Under the pieces are notes generated by a model that searched no databases, was not told the DNA's origin, and saw only the letters and a program-made list of their open reading frames with translations. 64,000 bases of DNA from Tubulanus polymorphus (Eukaryota > Nemertea > Palaeonemertea > Tubulaniformes > Tubulanidae). Location: NCBI RefSeq assembly GCF_964204645.1, contig NC_134026.1, forward strand, positions 26,244,650 through 26,308,649, read 5' to 3'. Below, in pieces: positions 20,149 through 54,547 of the stretch; the stretch's first letter is position 1, and every line of letters begins with the position of its first letter. The position numbers were made by a program, and so were the translations under genes.

Positions 20149-20296
20149 ACAATATAAACTTTATTTAACCAACGCTCAACTTTAATACCTAATCGTTGGT
20201 GGTAAGCTTTTATAATCGGATATGGGTAGGACCTGGAACAGAAGTTGCAGCTACTGAATTGCAACTTTGATTTTTAATTTCCAATTTAGGACAAGT

Positions 20297-21100
20297 ATGA
20301 AAATAAATGAAAAGAACGTCATCAGTTTTGCTGTATGCAATTCGCCTATCGATAAAGAAGGTTTCCTGTTGAAGAAGGGCGAGGTGAATAAAGGATTTCA
20401 AAAACGTTGGTTTGTGCTAAAAGGGAATTTACTGTTTTATTTTGAGAAACCCGGTGATAAGGAACCTATTGGAGTTATAATATTAGAGGGTTGTACAGTT
20501 GAGCTATCTGAACGTGAATACGACGCGTATAGTTTTTCGATAGTTTATCCCGGACCCGGATGTAGAAGTTATATTCTGGCCGCGGAAACACAAGAAGAGA
20601 TGGAGGCTTGGATGAAAGCAATAACGTGTGCTGGATACGAGTATATGAAACTGATGGTATCGGAATTACAAAGACAGCTCGATGAACATAATAAAATGAC
20701 CACTTTATCCGGAATTAAGAATAACGATATCGGGAAAAATGTCACGGAATTAGGAACTTTAATGTTGGATACTCCAGTGCCTTCGGTTTCGAATGAACCA
20801 AAACCGACATCTTCGCAACGGTTTAATCCATTCAATAACCTTGACATTACGGTTGATGAGGAAGAGAACTATAACCCTTTACCGGCTAATCAGTTACCCT
20901 CGCCATCCTCTCCACCCATAACACCAGAGCTTATGATGGGTGTTTCAAACTTTGGCAATTCTAGTTTTTTCAGCGAGGTTTCTATTCCCCCGTTACCAAC
21001 GGTTACAACTTCACGATCGTTTGAAGAAATGCATGAATTGTTTGGGCAGCAAATTCATTCACTCAGGCAGAGTATGATGCTAGATAGTTCCGAAGCGTAA
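20297..21100 (+). CDS. PHETA: Sesquipedalian / PH domain-containing endocytic trafficking adaptor
   Basis: This single coding exon gives 267 residues. The start is ATG 20297, just after an acceptor (AG before 20290), so the first exon is untranslated; the N-terminus MKINEKNVISFAV matches the family start. The PH domain covers about residues 17-115 (EGFLLKKG, FQKRWFVLKGNLLFYFE, EPIGVIILEGCTVEL, YILAAETQEEMEAW) and is followed by a short helical stretch and a Ser/Pro-rich linker. Near the C-terminus FEEMHELFGQQI has the F-x-x-x-H spacing of the F&H motif that binds the inositol 5-phosphatases OCRL and INPP5B. Vertebrate PHETA1/2 act in endosome-to-Golgi and endosome-to-surface recycling. Vertebrates have two paralogues; I cannot assign this copy to either, consistent with an invertebrate single ancestral gene. 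Confidence 0.93.
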   Translation: MKINEKNVISFAVCNSPIDKEGFLLKKGEVNKGFQKRWFVLKGNLLFYFEKPGDKEPIGVIILEGCTVELSEREYDAYSFSIVYPGPGCRSYILAAETQEEMEAWMKAITCAGYEYMKLMVSELQRQLDEHNKMTTLSGIKNNDIGKNVTELGTLMLDTPVPSVSNEPKPTSSQRFNPFNNLDITVDEEENYNPLPANQLPSPSSPPITPELMMGVSNFGNSSFFSEVSIPPLPTVTTSRSFEEMHELFGQQIHSLRQSMMLDSSEA

Positions 21101-44331: not shown

Positions 44332-46637
44332 TCATGAAACACGTCTTTCTTCTGGTACACACATGAATAGTTTCTGCATCCATAAGGTAGACTCATCTGA
44401 AAAAAAGATAAACCATGCATCAAGTATATATCAAAAGGAGAATAGTCTTAAGAGTGGCTACGGCAGTTGCTACAGTACCAGTGACAAAACTTACTCATAA
44501 AGTTAAGGAAGACCTTTGGTTTCTTCTCCCATTTCACAAAGATTATGTAAACAGGAATTCCTGTGGCAATTATAAGGCAACCGAAGCCAGTTTCAACCGG
44601 ACTGGCATATAGCGGCAGTACAACCAGGAAAACAGTACAACTCACATACAAAATCGGCCAAAACAGAGCCACCTGAAATGAAATAAGAAAACATGAGACT
44701 TATATATATATATCATGAAATAGCATAAACATGTGCATATCATGAAATAAAATTTGTTATTAATCATTAAGTTAATAGAAACAACTATGTATGTACCTTT
44801 ATTGGTCTGTTCATTTCTGGACGTTTCCAACGGAAATATAACAATGCTACGACAGATAAACCAATGGAGAGCCAGTTGACAAATCCAACATAGTTAATCA
44901 AAGCATACATATCAGTAGAACATAGGTAGATCAGAGATGTTAAACCCATGAACAATACAGCTGGAAGGGGAGTCATTCGCTGTACCTGAACCATACTCAA
45001 TATCTGAGGCATATGACCTTCACGCGCACCGACAAAAAATAATCTGAAAAGAGAAAAGAAGGCATCGAACTAAAAAGAATTTCAAAATTCACTTTCAGAA
45101 CTTAAGGACCTGAAATAAATGTAAATATAATTTAGATAATTCAGTATCTAACCTAAATTCAACTGACATTGATTAACCAGAACAATAGCCAAAGTAAACA
45201 TACCCTAATTTTAGCAGTTAAGATATTTTACTTTTCTGACGTTCATGAAAACGATCAAAATCAACTAGCACAACAACAATAACCGATTTATCAATCATTC
45301 TAAATCAATGCTAGAATTGACACCTACCGAGAAGTGGTGAAGAGAACACCATTAACACCCCCGAATGTTGACAGCGATACAAAGATCGGCATAACCCACC
45401 ACATAATTCCATACAATCTCTTCGAGAAAGTCTGCAAAATAATCAAGAAACTCTAGTAGTCATCAGTCTTCAATGAAGGTTTGCGTGGGGTAATTTAATC
45501 GAAACTTTCATTGATAATATTGACATCAATCAGGACACCTCAGATCATTAGTAATCCTCATTGAATTTTGATACGTACCACGGCTACAGCAGACGATTCT
45601 AATATTTCGTCAGGCATAACAGTAGTGAAATATGCCACATTTGCAAACACATACACTACCATTACCAAAATACAGGAGATCCATATAGCTTTCGGCAAAT
45701 TCCTAGAACGAGAATTGGATTTCAATGTGAAATCAATCAATTATGGGCATATCAACATGATGAAACCATATAAAAATGAATGCTTACTTTACTGGATCTT
45801 TCAGTTCCTCAATTACATAGTTCAAGTAATTCCTGTAAGAAAAATTTCATTTATTCATCCATCTTTCTTTACATAAGTACTTCTAGTTTGAGACATGTAG
45901 TGACTTTTAACACATTTAAGCCTAACATAGCTAATTTTCCTTATACCTACCAACCATTATATGCAAATAAACCAGAATAAAATGCCAATGATATTTCGCC
46001 CACGTCTGTTTTAGAATTTTCGAACGGATTTTTGAAGGCTTCATACTTTCCTAAGAAAAAAATTAATTTCAAACAAAATTAATTCTACAGTGGACATTAT
46101 AAATCAATACCATGACTGGATAAACATGATCACTACAAGTATTACATTGGGAGAGGCCAGGAAGGTTAGAAACTGATGACATAATGCTATTGATACGAAC
46201 AAGAGATATTTTATCCTTCAATCAGTCATTTGTAGATCGATCGCCGAGAAATCAATACTAAGTTACTTAGTGGAGATTTACGTTAGAAGAAAATCAATCA
46301 ATTTTCATGATAGAAAGTGCCACTAAGTATTACAAAAGTAATCAGTTTATGCTTGCAGCTACGTTAGATGGGGCCGAAGAGAGATAAAAGAAATAACAGG
46401 CAGAAACCCTGATAGGAATTTCATCTATCGGTATATCACACCACTAAATATGACATAGCTGTTCTTTATACCTTAGTTTCTTTTTCAGCTATAAATTGAA
46501 CTCAAACAAACCTCTTCCTATTTGAACAAATCCAGTGATGATGATCAGTATTAGTGCAAGAACTTTCGCATACGTGAATATATCTTGAACTCTGGTTGCC
46601 CATTTCACATCAGCACAGTTAACAAATGTTAAAATCG
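44332..46637 (-). CDS. SLC7 LAT-type amino-acid transporter, shared downstream exons
   Basis: Eight exons (46637-46512, 46050-45951, 45832-45788, 45702-45579, 45431-45328, 45043-44797, 44672-44495, 44396-44332) encode the part from TM4 onward: [20 protein letters not shown], the TM6 substrate segment [62 protein letters not shown] and a short C-terminal tail with [11 protein letters not shown]. These match LAT1/LAT2 (SLC7A5/SLC7A8), light chains of heteromeric exchangers of large neutral amino acids at the plasma membrane. LAT1 has FAYGGWNYLN where this has FAYNGWNYLN, and VTEE where this has VIEE. The last exon is deduced from an internal GTAAGT donor at 44494; reading through it instead gives an unfamily-like tail. 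The first of these exons accepts phase-1 donors from three alternative upstream exons. Total lengths would be 516, 506 or 494 residues. Confidence 0.92.
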
Positions 46638-47666
46638 CTGAAAATACACATAAAGACCAGCATTATTATATCTGTACAAATTAGGGGCTTTACTGTTCTC
46701 ATCTGAACAATCATCGGAGTATGATGACGTAGAATAGAAAACATTAAGGTCATCAAACATTGGAATTGTCATAACTATAACTAGAATAGCTACCATATAG
46801 TGATTCAGCTGTAGAAAAGTATAAACTATAACAAAAATCATTTCTATCTACTGGAAAAACTATTGTAAGCTTATATTACATTATGACATAAATTTGCTTA
46901 CTGGTTTATTTATATCCAGCTGTCATCGAAATGAAATTAAAATTTCAACAAAAAAATTATATCAATTTCTGTAATAGCAGCTGTAACCCAATTCATGTTT
47001 AAACTACCAGTAGGCCTGGCCTATAAGTAACCTGCTGAAGCATGAATTGGGGACTCTGGTGTGAAATGACATTGCCATTCATAATCTTGATAAATTGTGT
47101 CTTTTGTCTTAAATGGTGCGCCAGGTTCAACTAACAACCCAATTTTATTGAGTGTGGACCCATAGGAAAACTAGTTTATTATTACCAGCATGGTAGTACT
47201 TCAAATGTGACCATTCAATGAACCATATGATAATAGAGCTATTTGAGTAAAGCCTCCACATTACTCGGCGACTGACTACTACTATCTACTATGAAATAAC
47301 ATACAGGTCTGAAATGAGAGACCATGCAGATGCTAAAACTAATAAAAATTTATATTCTAAATCCAGCATTAAATAAACTCAATCAAAATCTAACAAAAAT
47401 TTCACTAATTCTGTGTACGATGAAAATCCTAACGCATATGAACTCAAAATACTAATCTGAGTTTATCTAGAAATACATAATTTGCCTAATTTTTGGATTG
47501 GATGACCGAAATTTGAAGTCAGAGTTAATTAGAAAAAGAACTATGGTACTTTTGATCGAGTATGTCTGATTTTTTTAGAGCTTTCCAATATCGATAGCTG
47601 GTTTTCCGGTAACCAATTGTAACTAAGTCATGTTTACACTATACCTTTCGTGTACATGATACTTAC
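46638..47666. other. SLC7 intron between first exon 1a and the shared body
   Basis: A 1.03-kb intron between two in-phase coding exons. I see no further exon in it. Confidence 0.7.
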
Positions 47667-48228
47667 CAATACAAACAGTTGCCAATAGCCTGACAGCTGT
47701 ATCAGGCTGATCACAGTCTGGAAACAGTGGCTCTATAACATAGTACGCAAATGTAAGGGCGACAATTGCCTGAGAACATGGGCGGACTATCATACACTCG
47801 ACCCATAGACGTAAAAACGCTAATAATGGTCCAAATGCTTCAAATATATACGCGTAGTCAGCTCCAGATCTCGTTATTAGAAGTCCTAATTCGGCATAGC
47901 AATACGCGCCTACCATTGAAAACAGTCCGCATAATATCCAAACTATCAGCGATGTACCGACACTTCCACAACCATCCAGCACTCCTTTAGGGCTGACAAA
48001 AATTCCGGAACCGATGATACTGCCAACGATTACTGTAATTCCGTTGATGAGGGTAACTTTTGGTTTGAGATTAACAGCTTCATTTCCAGCGGCTGGTGGC
48101 GGTACATCACCATTCACGGCTGTTTGTTCATTGTCCACTAACGGAGATAAACCAGTTCCTGAACTTGAAGGTCCATTTGGAGGAGTAACTGGCTCGTACT
48201 CCTTTTGAGGCGAGTTGCGCTTCGACAT
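47667..48228 (-). CDS. SLC7 alternative first coding exon 1a
   Basis: Starts at ATG 48228 and ends at a GTAAGTATC donor after CI(G), phase 1; 187 codons plus one base. It encodes a Pro/Ser-rich cytoplasmic tail (1-52), TM1 with the unwound substrate-binding motif GSIIGSGIF (69-77), TM2 and TM3 ([18 protein letters not shown]), and C172 in PLFPDC, the position of the LAT1 cysteine that bonds the SLC3A2 heavy chain. It then enters TM4. Joined to the shared exon at 46637 the junction codon is GCG (Ala). A TATATA lies at 48274-48269 on the minus strand, about 40 nt before the ATG. It is the exon nearest to the body. Confidence 0.92.
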
Positions 48229-48268
48229 TTTCAGACAAAATCTAGTGCCGAATGTATGACCGTGCTAC

Positions 48269-48274
48269 TATATA
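48269..48274 (-). promoter_or_regulatory. possible TATA box for SLC7 exon 1a
   Basis: TATATA on the minus strand 41-46 nt before the exon 1a start codon, within ACATATATAG. If functional, transcription would start only about 15 nt before the ATG. AT-rich sequence makes chance occurrences common. Confidence 0.25.
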
Positions 48275-49615
48275 TGTCTGTCAGTTATATCAGGTGTGTC
48301 AAGATAACAGCTGTTCTTTTATAATAAGAACTTGACGATCAGGCGTCTAGAACAATTGATGACGCAATGAGTCCAAAAGCAGTCTCCTCAGTTACTATCG
48401 TAGACAGTGTTACTCACGTTTAAAAACCCGGAAGTAGAAATTCCACGTTACGATTTTCTTCAAATTTACCGGTTTATTAGTAGATTTTCACGTGATCTTC
48501 TAGTTCAGATCATTTCCAAGATATCCACATGTCGCCGATAAATTAATTGTCAACTTGAAGGCGGTGTAAAGCTACAAATGTCCGTTGACACGTACAAAAC
48601 TTCACGAAATTCTATCACGACCACGCTTCAGCAGCGCCAATAACCACGTGACTTTAAATGCGGCCCATTTATCGACGGGGCATAGAGGTCATGCAAAATG
48701 GAACTATGTCTTTCAAGAACAAAATCACACGGAACAATTATTCCGAGATTACACTTAAATAATAACGATTACTTAAATTTTGTTATATATGATATTTCGC
48801 TAAAATATATCCCGTTTTCAATAATCTTGAAATGAGCTACGGCTAACGAGGGAAATAATAAACTATTCCAAATACGTCATTGATCTCGGGCCAATCAACA
48901 CCTAGAATGAAGTTATGAATGAACACCCACGTGCACTTGTTTACTACACATTGAATACTATACTACACACGACCAAAATTCAAAACAATAGCGCGTATAG
49001 CATATATCGAATATACGACATAATGTCCATCGCATATCATACACTCTGAAAACTATCACATGTTTTCTATGGTGGCCGACCCGTGCCATATTGAAAAAGT
49101 ATAATTGATCAGTCCCCACCAATCATCTTTTTTACATTTTTGCTCGTTTCGACCAAAATCCCGCAAATGTTCGTTTCAATGTCGGTCTTTATTTCATTTA
49201 ACGTGGTATTTTTCGTCTTAAGGTCGTAAATCCAACTTGTCGTTTTAAACGCGCCGGAATGAACAAAATGAGACACAAACATTTTCCTTTAGATTACCAC
49301 GCCGTAGTTTGAAAGTAGGATAAGTGTCTAAAACGACAATTTGGATTTAACGCCACAAAATGAAAAGCGTTAAAAAAGAAATTTGTGCCGGCAGATTGCC
49401 GTGCCATATCTCTTATCAATGCGCCCCGAATAAGCCATCATAATTTTTGCATATCTGCTAAAATCTCGGGCTAGCATTTCATTTCGGAAACGCGATAGTA
49501 CCGTGGAAAATGTCTTACAAACGTCTCTACGTGTCGTCAACTTCGAGACCGTCGATTCTGGATTTGTTTTATAGATCGCCAAAAATATGCAAATACATTT
49601 TATCATGACTTTGTA

Positions 49616-50462
49616 TAGTCAGTAACCTGTCTGTGGTTTAGTTTCACAATCGGATATTTTCACAAACCACAGTCAGGAATGGGAAGGTCATTTTTGTATG
49701 AAATCTTCGTCAGCCAATTTGACTGACGAGTAATTTGCCTGGCATTTCATTGTCTCTTAAGATATCCGTCTATTTTTTGTTGTAATCGACGCACAACAGA
49801 TTCGTTGTTTGTCTGATACCTATAACACCTCACCTGACGATCTTAATCCATGTGCAAATCGGCCGTAAAGTGAGAGTAAATTTCCGTCGGGTCAACAGCT
49901 GCCATTTTGAAAATTACTGGAGGTGCTGGCACCTGTGGACTGAGGCCAGGACAACAGCACAAACTAACGAAGCGAAACGACGAAATTGAAAAAAATTAAG
50001 AAATCAACACTTATTCACATTTTTCTTTTACCAGAATTTATTATTTTGTAATTTAATATGGAAAACCTGAAGATTTGAAATATAAGTTGGAAAACCATCA
50101 AAAATAAAAATTGTCGTTTCGTCTTGAAAGTTTTATATAAATCCTTGTAGGTCCCCTTGTCTTATCATGCCACATGTGCAATACAGAGAAATGGCGGCCA
50201 ATGGCGAAATTGGTGGAGAAATTAATTAATTTCTCAAAATAATGTTGATTAACCACTCGAAACATACATAAAATTGGATTATTTCGAAAGGTACCTGTGT
50301 TAGATTGTGAATTAAGCCATTAATTGTGGACTGAAGTGAATAGAAAGTATATTTTTGAAGTGTTACTTTTTTCAACCGTGTTTTGGTCCTTGTCATCCCT
50401 AACGTTGGTATAAGCCCATCCGATTATAAAAAGCTTACCACCAACGATTAGGTAACTAACTA
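49616..50462. mobile_element. 847-bp non-autonomous DNA element with 9-bp target duplication
   Basis: Begins TAGTCAGTAACCT and ends AGGTAACTAACTA (imperfect terminal inverted repeats). It is flanked by a perfect 9-bp direct repeat GACTTTGTA at 49607-49615 and 50463-50471. The outer ~57 and ~62 bp are nearly identical to the 115-bp copy at 41077-41191. Each end contains its own small hairpin. A 9-bp duplication fits Mutator-like elements; no transposase is encoded. The interior (about 49840-50230) contains gene-like starts on both strands. It lies between SLC7 exons 1a and 1b. Confidence 0.85.
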
Positions 50463-51010
50463 GACTTTGTATAGGCCTACTCGAAACGGTATAAACTATA
50501 TTTCATTAAAAATCAGACCCTCATCTAAGAGGACAAGTGAAGCAGTTTCTTGAGACATTATCCTCGGCCCATACATCGTTTGGTTAGAGATCACCTGATA
50601 CATCATCTGACCATTAATATTATGATTTACTCTACGAATTGGTTGTCCTATTCCCCTCGCACTATATTTATTCATGTTTGCCAAGTTATCATTCGGAAGT
50701 TTGCGTGCATCTAGCGTAGAAGGCCATCCATTGGAAAAAGGGAAACTCTCTATTGATTATTCCTTAGTTTTTGTATATTTCAGACCTTACCATCATAGCG
50801 AACGAACCCCCTTTTTTCGGCTAGGTTTCTTCATTTTTTACTACATAGTTTTGTAAACAGCTTAATACTACGTATTTGTAAAGATATTATACATATTAAA
50901 TAAAACAAACACGCAATTGTTGTAATTTGTTTCTCCTCACGGTTCTCGTGTTTTTTTCCCGGAAGGTAATCACTCAAGGTGGCAGGAAAACGCTTTAAAT
51001 CGCTCCTTAT

Positions 51011-51090
51011 TTCCAAACCCCCCGTGGGGACTTCGAACCTCAGGTCCTTTTCAAAGGCGCCTTACTAGATTCGCCAAATCGCCGATGATC
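51011..51090 (-). repeat. possible tRNA-derived SINE fragment
   Basis: On the minus strand GGTTCGAAGT (about 51040) resembles a polymerase III B box, and TGGCGAATCTAGTAAGG, about 40 nt upstream, loosely resembles an A box. The DNA is locally GC-rich compared with its surroundings. No full cloverleaf can be drawn, so I do not call a tRNA gene. Confidence 0.3.
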
Positions 51091-51388
51091 GAACCCCCTA
51101 AAAATATCTATGTCCCGAATATCCTATGACCATGATGCTAGGTTTTCTATATAACGTACACAGCTCTTGACGTTACATACTATTAACTTAAAATGTGGTT
51201 TCAGATATTCAACAAATGACATTGAACGCGCATGACCTCTTCACTCTTTCACCCCGAGAAAACAATTTCATCACATCTTAATCGTGTCGCGCGTGAAAGA
51301 AATGAATGCCGCGTAGTAGAAAAATATAGGAAATATGGACAATGAGGTGACATTTAACAAACCTTCGCCTCACTCGCTAGATACTTAC

Positions 51389-51920
51389 TTATGCAGCCGG
51401 CAGCAAGAAGGACCACCGATGTTCGTGGCTGATCACATTCTGGGAAAATTGGTTCAAGCACGTAATAAGCAAATGCCAACGCTATGATAGCCTGAGTACC
51501 TGGCCTGACAATCATACACTCCACCCAGAGCCTTAAAAATCCCAGAAATGGTCCAAATGCGTCAGAGATGTACGAATAGTCAGCGCCTGACTTTTTTATC
51601 ATAGTTCCCAATTCGGCATAACAGTAGGCACCACATAGCGAAAATAATCCACACAGTAACCAAATAATTAGTGATATACCAACACTTCCAGAATGTTCAA
51701 GAACTCCAGTCGGGCTGATGAATATACCCGAGCCTATTATGCTACCAACAATTACAGTAACTCCATTTAAAAGTGAAACTTTTGGCTTGAGATTTACTCC
51801 TTTTTGACCATCTCCAGTATCTGATTGTTTGACTTCTTGAAGCAGGTTTTCCGGCCCTTCTGGTGATTTAACCACGGAACCATCTCCGGCTCCATTCGCC
51901 GATTTATCATCCACATTCAT
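51389..51920 (-). CDS. SLC7 alternative first coding exon 1b
   Basis: Starts at ATG 51920 and ends at a GTAAGTATC donor after CI(S/T), phase 1; 177 codons plus one base. An acidic tail of about 42 residues is followed by VNLKPKVSLLNGVTVIVG, the TM1 motif GSGIF (63-67), [30 protein letters not shown] and C162 in PIFPEC. From the NLKPK box on it is clearly homologous to exons 1a and 1c, while the tails do not align. Spliced to 46637 the junction codon is ACG (Thr). No second copy of the body exons lies between this exon and exon 1a, so a complete protein needs splicing over exon 1a, an intron of about 4.8 kb. Confidence 0.88.
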
Positions 51921-52506
51921 AGTTTTAATTCTGTTTTATTTATATGCGAAATTGCTGAAAAACTCTTTTAATAAAAATAGAGTTTTCCACGAGCGGATAG
52001 CATATGTCGGTCGTCTCGCAACGTCCGTGGAATGAAACACCTTGGAGATACGACAACGCGGATGCTTTATATTGCCATCACTACGTCACCCACACACGCG
52101 ATGATATATTTCTTTTTTCCATGTTTGAACTCAGAACAATCGTCCGTACATTTGAAAAGTGGCTCATATCTAAATGGCTGTGAAAAGTAATCATGTTATC
52201 TCCTCAAAATCAGAATAATTGATAGCAAAGTTCGCATATAAAAGAATAGATAAGCAGAATGGGCTAAATGAATAACCAACAAATTTACCAAACATTGTGC
52301 GTGTCAAAGCCTTTTGCAACCATCTGATATATAACTTTTCCTGTACTGGCATTTTTCCTGGTTTTTAGGCCAGTGAGCCCTTTGGTCAGAAAATATGAAT
52401 TAGGTAGGCCTATATCAGATGGCCGCCGTGCTTTTCGTTTGGATAGAAGTACTGATAGATCTTTTGAAAAACACCAAAAGTTGTAAAACAAATTCATCAT
52501 TCTTAC

Positions 52507-53002
52507 TTATGCAGCACATCGCTAGAAAGACAACGCCCAGTTCAGGTTCTTTGCAATCAGGAAATAGTGGTTCCAGAACGTAGTTTGCAAATACTAATGC
52601 CATAATAGCTTGTGTAGCTGGTCTTATGATTGTCACCTCTACCCATAAGCGTAAAAAGCCAATAAATGGTCCAAATGCTTCGGACATGTAGGCATAATCG
52701 GCGCCTGATTTTGTGATGATAGTTCCCAATTCGGCATAACAATAAGCTCCACACAAGGAGAACAGTCCACACGCCACCCAAACGACCAGTGACGAACCGA
52801 CACTTCCAGCATGCTTCAACACACCAGTTGGAGCCACGAAAGGTCCAGATCCTATGATGCTACCAACTATAAAAGTTACTCCACTGAACATAGAAATTTT
52901 AGGCTTTAAATACACCTTTTTATCATCGTCCGCAAAACCATCTTCTCTCAGTGAAGAAAGAATATTTTCCTGAATATCATCGTTAACAGCAGAGTGAGCC
53001 AT
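52507..53002 (-). CDS. SLC7 alternative first coding exon 1c
   Basis: Starts at ATG 53002 and ends at a GTAAGA donor after CI(S/T), phase 1; 165 codons plus one base. The N-terminal tail is short (about 32 residues). The TM1 motif reads GSGPF (51-55) instead of GSGIF, with FVAPTGV after it. [18 protein letters not shown] is present; VEVTIIRP replaces VECMIVRP; C150 in PLFPDC is kept. The frame is intact, so it is not an obvious pseudogene, but a proline in the unwound TM1 segment is unusual for this family. It would splice to the body over exons 1b and 1a (about 5.9 kb) with Thr at the junction. Confidence 0.85.
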
Positions 53003-54547
53003 TTAAAATCCATACAAGTCCTTCGTTCGAATAACTAAGGCCCAGGACACACCCGATATCCGCAATAAAGGGCTTATCTTCAACTCAGGGTATCTTCCAA
53101 TCAGCGACTTTAGGTCTGTTCAAACAACAAATCGGATTAAATACGTATGAATGCGTGAAAGATTTCAATTGAAAGAAATATAAATCATATGTAAAACGAT
53201 GTTTTTATTTGTGATACGAAACTATCAGTTTCTAATAATGTATGTATGTATATATTCGTAGTAAAACATATAAGAATTATAGTTGTATGAATTAACAATC
53301 GAAGGAAAATTTGATGAAAACGCTAACACGAAATTTAAAATCACCAGTAAGATCCGGTATTATATATCTTTTCTTCGTAAGACGCCATAACTGTGGAAAT
53401 GATAAATTTAGCTTTATTTGGCAAGTTTTACAATAGAAAGCCCACACCATGATTTATCATGGTATACACATGGTTTAACGTTTTCCAATAACCATCGTAT
53501 AAAGTGAATATTTTCCTGTAAAATCGGTCAGTGTCAGTGGGTCCCGGAATTTCATATTTGGTGCATCAGTCGGTTATGTGGTTTATGTTGCAATCAAAGA
53601 ACTTGGATTTTGTTCACAAACTGCCAGTGATCTACTCGTATTGCCGTAGGTATGTCCGAATTTAAAGACTTGTTCTGAAAAAACCCAGAAAAATGTGTAA
53701 TTGTTACAAAATTCGATTTCAAAACGCACGAACATCATGTTTTATTGATACAAAATGAATCTGAACAAATAAAATAACAACAAAGCAACAAAATTAAATA
53801 ACTTATAAAAACCAACAATTGATATCGAGCTTGTAATAGTTTCCTAAAATATAATCCCCTGACGACTGCATTCAATCCCGGATTTGACCGTACGGTGAAT
53901 GGTGCAAAAAGCTTTGCGTGATGAACCGAGCTACGTGCTGACAGGACGTCAGATAATCACTGAAAAACATTGTCGGCGCCAATTTGTTGATTGTGGTATA
54001 CAGAACTAATCACATTTGCTTATAAATCCGTGACACGTTTTGCGATGTTATTTGGTTATTGTTTTTGATAAATCAGTGTATATCCGTCAGCTGAATATAT
54101 CATATTATATTTGCCGCTTGTAGACTGTCCAATAGAAGATCTTTAAATAATTCGAAAAGCTACTAAATATAGATTTAAATAGCAAAAAGCATTAAACACT
54201 GATGTGATACGTATCATTTCTGACCGCCGTGAAGCTGGCTCCCGGTTCCCGGTTCCCGGTTGGGCTCCCGATTGAAAATGATTTTGAATCGGGAGCCCAA
54301 CCGGGAACCGGGAACCGGGAGCCAGCTTCACGGGGGTTCATTTCTGTAGTAGCCATAGACAACGAAAATAGTGTTTGGCTAATGTGATGTTGTACCTTTA
54401 ATTGCTTGCCGTTCTTTCTAAAACAAGAAATACATTTACGATGATTTTTTAGTAAGTCTACCTTTGTCCTTTTGATTTTTTCTTTGAACCACCGCATATC
54501 ACAGCAGACAGCTTTACATTTTTACTAGGTTTCATGAAATACACGAA
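53003..54547. other. interval upstream of SLC7 exon 1c
   Basis: 1.5 kb between the start of SLC7 exon 1c and the stop codon of the CIMIP2-like gene, both on the minus strand. It should hold the exon 1c promoter and the 3' end of the CIMIP2-like transcript. Apart from the inverted repeat at 54227-54333 I see no feature. Confidence 0.5.
54227..54333. repeat. perfect GC-rich 47-bp inverted repeat with 13-nt loop
   Basis: The left arm 54227-54273 and the right arm 54287-54333 are exact reverse complements, with the spacer GAAAATGATTTTG between them. Each arm contains short tandem GGTTCCC (or GGGAACC) units. GC content is far above the surrounding AT-rich DNA. Complementarity stops abruptly at both outer ends. 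It lies about 215 bp beyond the stop codon of the CIMIP2-like gene, so it may be in its 3' untranslated region. Confidence 0.95.

Follow-up and report, generated by a model that had tools for sequence, protein, structure and literature searches.

The SLC7 gene described here lies in a 64,000-nucleotide (nt) stretch of the genome of the palaeonemertean Tubulanus polymorphus (NC_134026.1, positions 26,244,650 to 26,308,649, hereafter the window) and probably contains a UGT1-like cluster of variable first exons, any of which could be spliced to a single downstream body, giving light-chain isoforms that would differ in the substrate pocket and the N-terminal tail. Three intact homologous first coding exons, in the order 1c, 1b and 1a, precede a single body of eight exons on the minus strand of the window, which belongs to a contig (C2) of 31,900,244 nt in the 268-Mb genome. 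This reading had been proposed by a first-pass annotation made from the letters of the window, and it is supported by the single body, by three exons that are intact and old, and by an NCBI model in which 1b is joined to the body acceptor at 46637.

Three first exons and a single body

The locus is predicted from its sequence to be one gene for the light chain of a heterodimeric amino-acid transporter of the LAT/y+LAT type. The closest solved relatives of the 1b-plus-body product are, by sequence, LAT2 (E 1.7e-170), y+LAT1 and LAT1, and a match to Pfam AA_permease_2 indicates the amino-acid permease fold; the score for NCBIfam TIGR00911 was 643 bits, below its cut-off of 702. The GSG substrate motif of the first transmembrane segment (TM1) is present in all three first exons. 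As well, the cysteine of the heavy-chain disulfide, which stands before TM4 in a column that we take to be that of LAT1 Cys164, is Cys in 1a, 1b and 1c, as the first-pass annotation had claimed.

Exons 1c (52507..53002, 496 bases), 1b (51389..51920, 532 bases) and 1a (47667..48228, 562 bases) encode tails of 29, 41 and 51 amino acids (aa), respectively, each followed by TM1–TM3 and part of TM4; 1b is the exon used in NCBI isoform X2, and 1a is of the canonical type. The tails are dissimilar and differ in lysine and proline content. Each exon starts with an ATG, is free of stops, has a length of 1 modulo 3 and ends at a GTAAG donor in phase 1, the following sequence being GTAAGTATCA, GTAAGTATCT and GTAAGAATGA for 1a, 1b and 1c, respectively. 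The body acceptor at 46637 reads ...TATTTTCAG followed by CG, and the junction residue is Ala for 1a (G joined to CG) and Thr for 1b and 1c (A joined to CG). Constant exon 2 (46512..46637) accepts phase 1 and is followed by exons 3 (45951..46050), 4 (45788..45832), 5 (45579..45702), 6 (45328..45431), 7 (44797..45043) and 8 (44495..44672), all on the minus strand and all placed by GT-AG mapping of NCBI isoform X2 (P0001), while exon 9 (44332..44396) has its start from the same mapping and its stop codon (TGA, 44334-44332) read directly. In-frame stops lie 39, 18 and 3 nt upstream of the ATGs of 1a, 1b and 1c, respectively, and the three exons are thus separate translation starts. The same exons account for three of the six stop-to-stop open reading frames of at least 160 aa in the window.

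These data agree exactly with the first-pass annotation in the coordinates of the three exons and the body, in the own ATG and strong phase-1 donor at the same protein position, and in the junction residues. Its description of the exon content as a tail plus TM1–TM3 is right in what it includes, but the exons end inside TM4 rather than after TM3, since junction residue 178 falls inside a predicted helix (166-186) that is TM4 in the AlphaFold2 model of P0001 (mean predicted local distance difference test score 80). On this model, exon choice would exchange the tail, TM1–TM3 and the beginning of TM4.

No second body was found by tblastn (E 0.01) in the window or in the 20 kb beyond its high end, in keeping with the single set of downstream exons claimed earlier. 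In a Pfam search of the genome, in which 22 of 64 candidates were scored and six matches on C7 were left out of the comparison, 13 first-exon-type matches besides the three of the window were found on C2, C3, C5 and C8. All 13 of these paralogous first exons, seven of them in two tandem arrays and six single, have their own downstream body exons; aligned to 1a, they run to its last codon or end no more than five residues from it. As each paralog has its own body and an end matching that of 1a, the large first exon would be the ancestral gene structure. Judged from these sequences, whole-gene duplication appears to be usual in T. polymorphus, whereas here the first exon alone appears to have been multiplied.

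The product of 1b and the body is identical at 506 of 506 residues to the NCBI protein "large neutral amino acids transporter small subunit 2-like isoform X2" of Tubulanus polymorphus (P0001), whose model joins 1b to 46637 and skips 1a, which was the key prediction for 1b. The label "isoform X2" implies at least one further isoform, and its sequence cluster holds two sequences.

The core proteins of the exons are 75% (1a-1b), 66% (1a-1c) and 71% (1b-1c) identical. Nonsynonymous and synonymous divergence by the Nei-Gojobori method (NG86 dN/dS) was 0.171/3.98 for 1a-1b and 0.212/1.73 for 1b-1c, and for 1a-1c dN was 0.271 with dS not computable; codon differences between the exons amount to 0.56-0.63 at third positions versus 0.10-0.15 at second positions. 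The large dS (at least 1.7) together with the low dN (0.17-0.27) argues that all three exons are old and have long been under protein-level selection. At 72 near-invariant positions (165 rows), 1a departs at none and 1b at five, and with a laxer threshold and more rows 1a departs at one of 74.

In sum, an ancestral large first coding exon may have been duplicated in tandem; every copy has a start codon and ends at the same phase-1 donor, which would allow any of the three to be joined to the one body. In the likeliest scheme, each exon would be transcribed from its own promoter, and its donor would join the body acceptor while the exons between are skipped, as in UGT1. From the remainder of TM4 onward the products would be the same, and the side of the pocket formed by TM6 and TM10 would be common to all; the cytoplasmic tail and TM1, TM2 and TM3 would differ, and with them the TM3 residue that corresponds to LAT1 Ser144. 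Given these differences, the isoforms should differ in substrate preference or kinetics, as well as in tail-mediated regulation. Separate promoters, the transcription of 1a and 1c, and changed transport are what we infer from this arrangement.

Elsewhere in the genome, tandem SLC7 arrays comprise five complete paralogs at C2:20.56-20.59 Mb and two at C5:9.85-9.86 Mb, and whole-gene duplication coexists with first-exon duplication in one SLC7 family of one genome. Two loci on C7 (144718-145911 and 17330988-17332109) match AA_permease_2 across most of the domain in a single, seemingly intronless open frame; they may have arisen as retrocopies, belong to another branch of transporters or be of foreign origin.

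Other animals and the residues of the pocket

Three protein searches, with up to 120 clusters (90% identity) listed in each, yielded 241 proteins, of which 219 were under 560 aa and 22 were of 560 aa or more. The first-pass annotation had suggested searching relatives for the same exon array, and protein models of Haliotis, Gigantopelta, Blomia and Tigriopus were found to have the layout. In the gastropods Haliotis asinina (P0005/P0008) and Gigantopelta aegis (P0014/P0011), paired isoforms have identical bodies (323/323 in both) and first-exon cores of 81.6% and 76.5% identity, respectively, and diverge at the exon junction. The Gigantopelta proteins share a product name, are numbered X1 and X2 and come from a contig of equal size; the Haliotis proteins are likewise numbered X1 and X2 with a contig of equal size, but carry two product names, and are likely from one gene. 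No comparable isoform pair was visible for other species among the matches listed.

Among the 22 long models, those of the mite Blomia tropicalis and of a copepod (P0002, Tk00957), which we take from its gene tag to be Tigriopus kingsejongensis, have two first-exon units followed by one body; 19 models, all nematode, hold two units each with a whole or partial body, and one, from Parasteatoda, is a fusion of another kind. In Blomia, the model seems to continue past the first donor as far as the second ATG, and Tigriopus californicus isoform X1 corresponds to the first of the Tk00957 units on the same kind of body. The Tk00957 model looks imperfect, as about 40 residues of its first body exon are repeated letter for letter, possibly through a duplicated constant exon or an assembly slip. 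As a separate matter, many Trichinella models (e.g., P0172, P0173 and P0176-P0179) hold two transporter units head to tail and are perhaps gene-model fusions or a real doubled transporter.

In a free tree of 54 rows, in which the bootstrap had not settled, 1b and 1c were sisters (97/76) and a long-branched Schistosoma row joined them (93/81). The two Tk00957 units pair (98/92) inside a 14-row arthropod clade (99/97), where both Blomia units also fall, not together, and this placement suggests that the Tigriopus and Blomia units arose apart from those of Tubulanus. In the approximately unbiased test (p-AU), single clades were not rejected for the three Tubulanus exons (0.66), the Haliotis exons (0.58), the gastropod alternative exons (0.257) or the five-row lophotrochozoan alternative exons (0.185). 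A single ancestral first-exon duplication was set aside, the seven-row clade of all alternative exons being nearly rejected (p-AU 0.051). Snails, mite and copepod seem to have arrived at the same first-exon layout.

At each of 136 core positions, the canonical exon was set beside the alternative one in six pairings: 1b with 1a, 1c with 1a, and one pairing each from Haliotis, Gigantopelta, Blomia and Tigriopus. Position 142, in TM3, has Ser in 204 of the 215 background rows and a change in all six alternative exons, to Thr five times and to Asn in Blomia; in Tubulanus it is Ser in 1a and Thr in 1b and 1c. The only other site changed in all six, position 175, is poorly conserved. By alignment to solved chains with residues counted by hand, position 142 corresponds to LAT1 Ser144 and LAT2 Asn134, and position 60 to LAT1 Thr62 and LAT2 Asn52; the latter, Ser in 214 of 215 rows, is Cys in the alternative exons of Haliotis, Blomia and Tigriopus and unchanged in Gigantopelta and Tubulanus. 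The focus on position 142 is partly post hoc, as the known Ser144/Asn134 contrast was brought in once the alignment had been seen, and when the rows are thinned to 60 the position is less conserved than its raw count suggests (mean pairwise difference 0.26).

As given in the available parts of the reports concerned, Thr62 and Ser144 are among the four pocket residues that differ between LAT1 and LAT2 (PMC12444478), which gives independent grounds for attention to these two; in LAT2, the N134Q change left about 20% of the Trp/Leu counterflow and 15% of the Leu/Leu counterflow (PMC7653941), and LAT1 S144N abolished Leu transport while F400V/S144N kept about 20% (PMC11828871). The other two of those four residues fall in the body, and the constant body, read from the alignment, has Val at the LAT1 Phe400 position, as in LAT2. 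With this Val, the body should tolerate a larger residue at position 142, so that 1b and 1c could be working variants. Moreover, the TM3 pocket column 146 (LAT1 Val148) is Ile in 1b and Met in 1c, and the conserved TM3 columns 142, 146 and 149 are all changed in the Tubulanus alternative exons. Of the 1c departures at conserved sites, 5 of 9 fall in TM3 positions 135-149, an enrichment (p 0.007 or 0.009) that is borderline for 1b (0.06, 0.09) and Blomia (0.07, 0.19) and absent for the gastropods and the copepod. The repeated change at the Ser144 column lends some support to the earlier proposal of a different half-pocket for each exon.

We tentatively suggest that variable first exons may be a repeated solution of LAT-type genes, in which single exons would have been duplicated independently in several phyla, with the LAT1 Ser144 position changed each time and the Val at the Phe400 position of the constant half tolerating the changes. 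An ancestral first exon that held TM1–TM3, its own ATG and a phase-1 donor would have eased such events.

Contrary evidence and alternative explanations

Several results weigh against a cluster of three working variable exons. Exon 1c departs at 10 of the 72 near-invariant positions, including a Pro straight after GSG where 215 of 215 background rows have Ile, and for this reason its transport activity is doubtful. No Tubulanus 1a-plus-body or 1c-plus-body protein occurred among the 120 matches listed in either of two protein searches, though a near-top rank would be expected, which is either evidence against the full claim or a database gap. No motif common to the regions upstream of 1a, 1b and 1c was found: in sets of 200 shuffles, 112, 163 and 174 attained the three local scores. 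Three pairs of introns were also compared, and a 22-nt match in the 1b-1c pair was equaled by one of 200 shuffles. As to the pocket, the top sites over five events were 142, 60 and 98 (p 0.0010, 0.0014 and 0.0014), which become 0.14-0.19 after Bonferroni correction over 136 sites (0.14 for position 142); with 1c replacing 1b the corrected values are 0.20-0.25 (0.20 for position 142), and with four events, leaving out Gigantopelta, position 60 leads at 0.08 and position 142 falls to 0.57. No single recurrent site is significant after full correction, and the best-scoring position 60 is one that does not change in Tubulanus. Furthermore, LAT1 Ser144 was reported to have no part in Trp binding, in the available part of one study (PMC12444478).

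The state of 1c bears on the explanation that only one or two exons work and that 1c, or 1b and 1c, is a decaying copy rarely or never used. Its many departures and its end branch in the tree (0.71, versus 0.24 and 0.13 for the other two Tubulanus exons) would fit such decay, and partial use is favored by 1b plus body being the sole Tubulanus combination among the database proteins listed. We nevertheless consider this quite unlikely: the 1b-1c dN/dS is about 0.12 at a dS of 1.7, the ATG, frame and donor are intact in all three exons, and in a simple simulation, neutral change as large as that between 1b and 1c left the core free of stops with a chance of 0.008 (all of it on one branch) or 0.05 (half). 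That 1b and 1c had, or still have, their own bodies, lost recently or missing from the assembly through error, is highly improbable, even with tandem whole-gene SLC7 arrays (five at C2, two at C5) existing in this genome. The gap between 1c and 1b is only 0.6 kb, the contig is 31.9 Mb long, and the NCBI model joins 1b across 1a to the body; assembly collapse was ruled out, since neither the window nor the 20 kb past its high end yielded a trace of another body and since the layout recurs in other phyla.

How an exon would be chosen is a separate question, and an unlikely though live answer is that one far-upstream promoter supplies a common non-coding leader, with 1a, 1b and 1c as mutually exclusive internal exons bearing their own ATGs and selected by splicing, like exon 4 of NKCC2. 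Acceptor-like sites upstream of all three ATGs (e.g., 53115 and 53390 for 1c, 52040 and 52357 for 1b, 48346 for 1a) would support it, with crude scores of 7.5-8.5 versus 8.3-11.4 for the eight body acceptors, although such matches are common by chance and were scored without a null. The TATA-like element of 1b also favors a common leader, since at 24 nt from the ATG it lies too near to serve it, whereas TATA-like elements 46 and 95 nt before the 1a ATG speak against it. An own start codon with a close upstream in-frame stop fits separate first exons equally well, and these stops argue against a shared coding exon upstream in the same frames but leave room for a non-coding one. The phrase "each promoter" in the first-pass annotation is accordingly too firm, as no upstream motif is shared and splicing from a common 5' leader is an alternative. 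It is also rather unlikely, in our view, that the alternative exons differ in regulation, through promoter and N-terminal tail, and not in transport; the dissimilar tails (51, 41 and 29 aa, with their different lysines and prolines) favor this explanation, but the conserved TM3 columns 142, 146 and 149 change as well, and the four remaining cases also show a change at 142.

About 1.2 kb upstream of 1c, a near-perfect 57-nt inverted repeat (54223-54337) has arms that are 96% complementary and separated by 1 nt, and contains internal CCCGGTT repeats; its 34-nt core occurs in the window only in the two arms (at most 3 mismatches). A 280-aa open frame with a PH domain (20258-21097; Pfam PF00169, E 3.2e-23) has no relation to the SLC7 gene.

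Comparison with known systems

The first-pass annotation had described the layout as unfamiliar for SLC7. No published SLC7 case of variable first exons was found in a search of the open literature by title and start of abstract, with many journals outside its coverage and nothing returned on the known SLC7A2 case either. The layout is not confined to the Tubulanus gene, as two gastropods, a mite and a copepod show the same. Isoforms are already in NCBI models, but the layout itself is, as far as the literature searched goes, undescribed. If the variable-first-exon reading is true, a LeuT-fold transporter can be assembled in combinations: transcription start or splicing would select the TM1/TM3 half of the pocket, and the second half would stay constant. 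Natural experiments on the LAT1 Ser144/LAT2 Asn134 position, which structural work has already tied to transport and inhibitor selectivity, would then be on offer in as many as four or five lineages.

UGT1, GCNT2, UGT2A and the clustered protocadherins (PCDH) have been described as variable-first-exon clusters, in the available part of one report (PMC1885805). To that extent, the Tubulanus gene has in common with them large tandem homologous first exons that code for a variable N-terminal part, one constant set and the same phase, and the birth and death of exons between species can be listed as a further likeness. Unlike UGT1 and PCDH, the Tubulanus gene encodes a 12-TM transporter split inside TM4, so that a membrane-embedded part of the pocket would be swapped; it has three exons only, its promoters are putative, and it belongs to the invertebrates.

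Among transporters, SLC7A2 has mutually exclusive exons (CAT-2A/CAT-2B) that alter affinity, but it belongs to a different SLC7 branch and exchanges an internal loop exon. NKCC2 (SLC12A1) belongs to the APC superfamily. Its exons 4A, 4B and 4F are tandem duplicates that change a TM segment and ion affinity, as given in the accessible part of PMC7818487. The likeness lies in tandem duplicated exons of a transporter gene altering a TM segment; in NKCC2, on the same partial account, splicing selects an internal cassette that covers TM2 and a loop, whereas the Tubulanus gene has whole first coding exons with their own ATGs that hold TM1–TM3 and part of TM4. The nearest match is provided by the X1 and X2 isoforms of the gastropod LAT/y+LAT-like genes, which have an identical body, a different first-exon part and the same junction, with two variants seen in the gastropods and three in Tubulanus.

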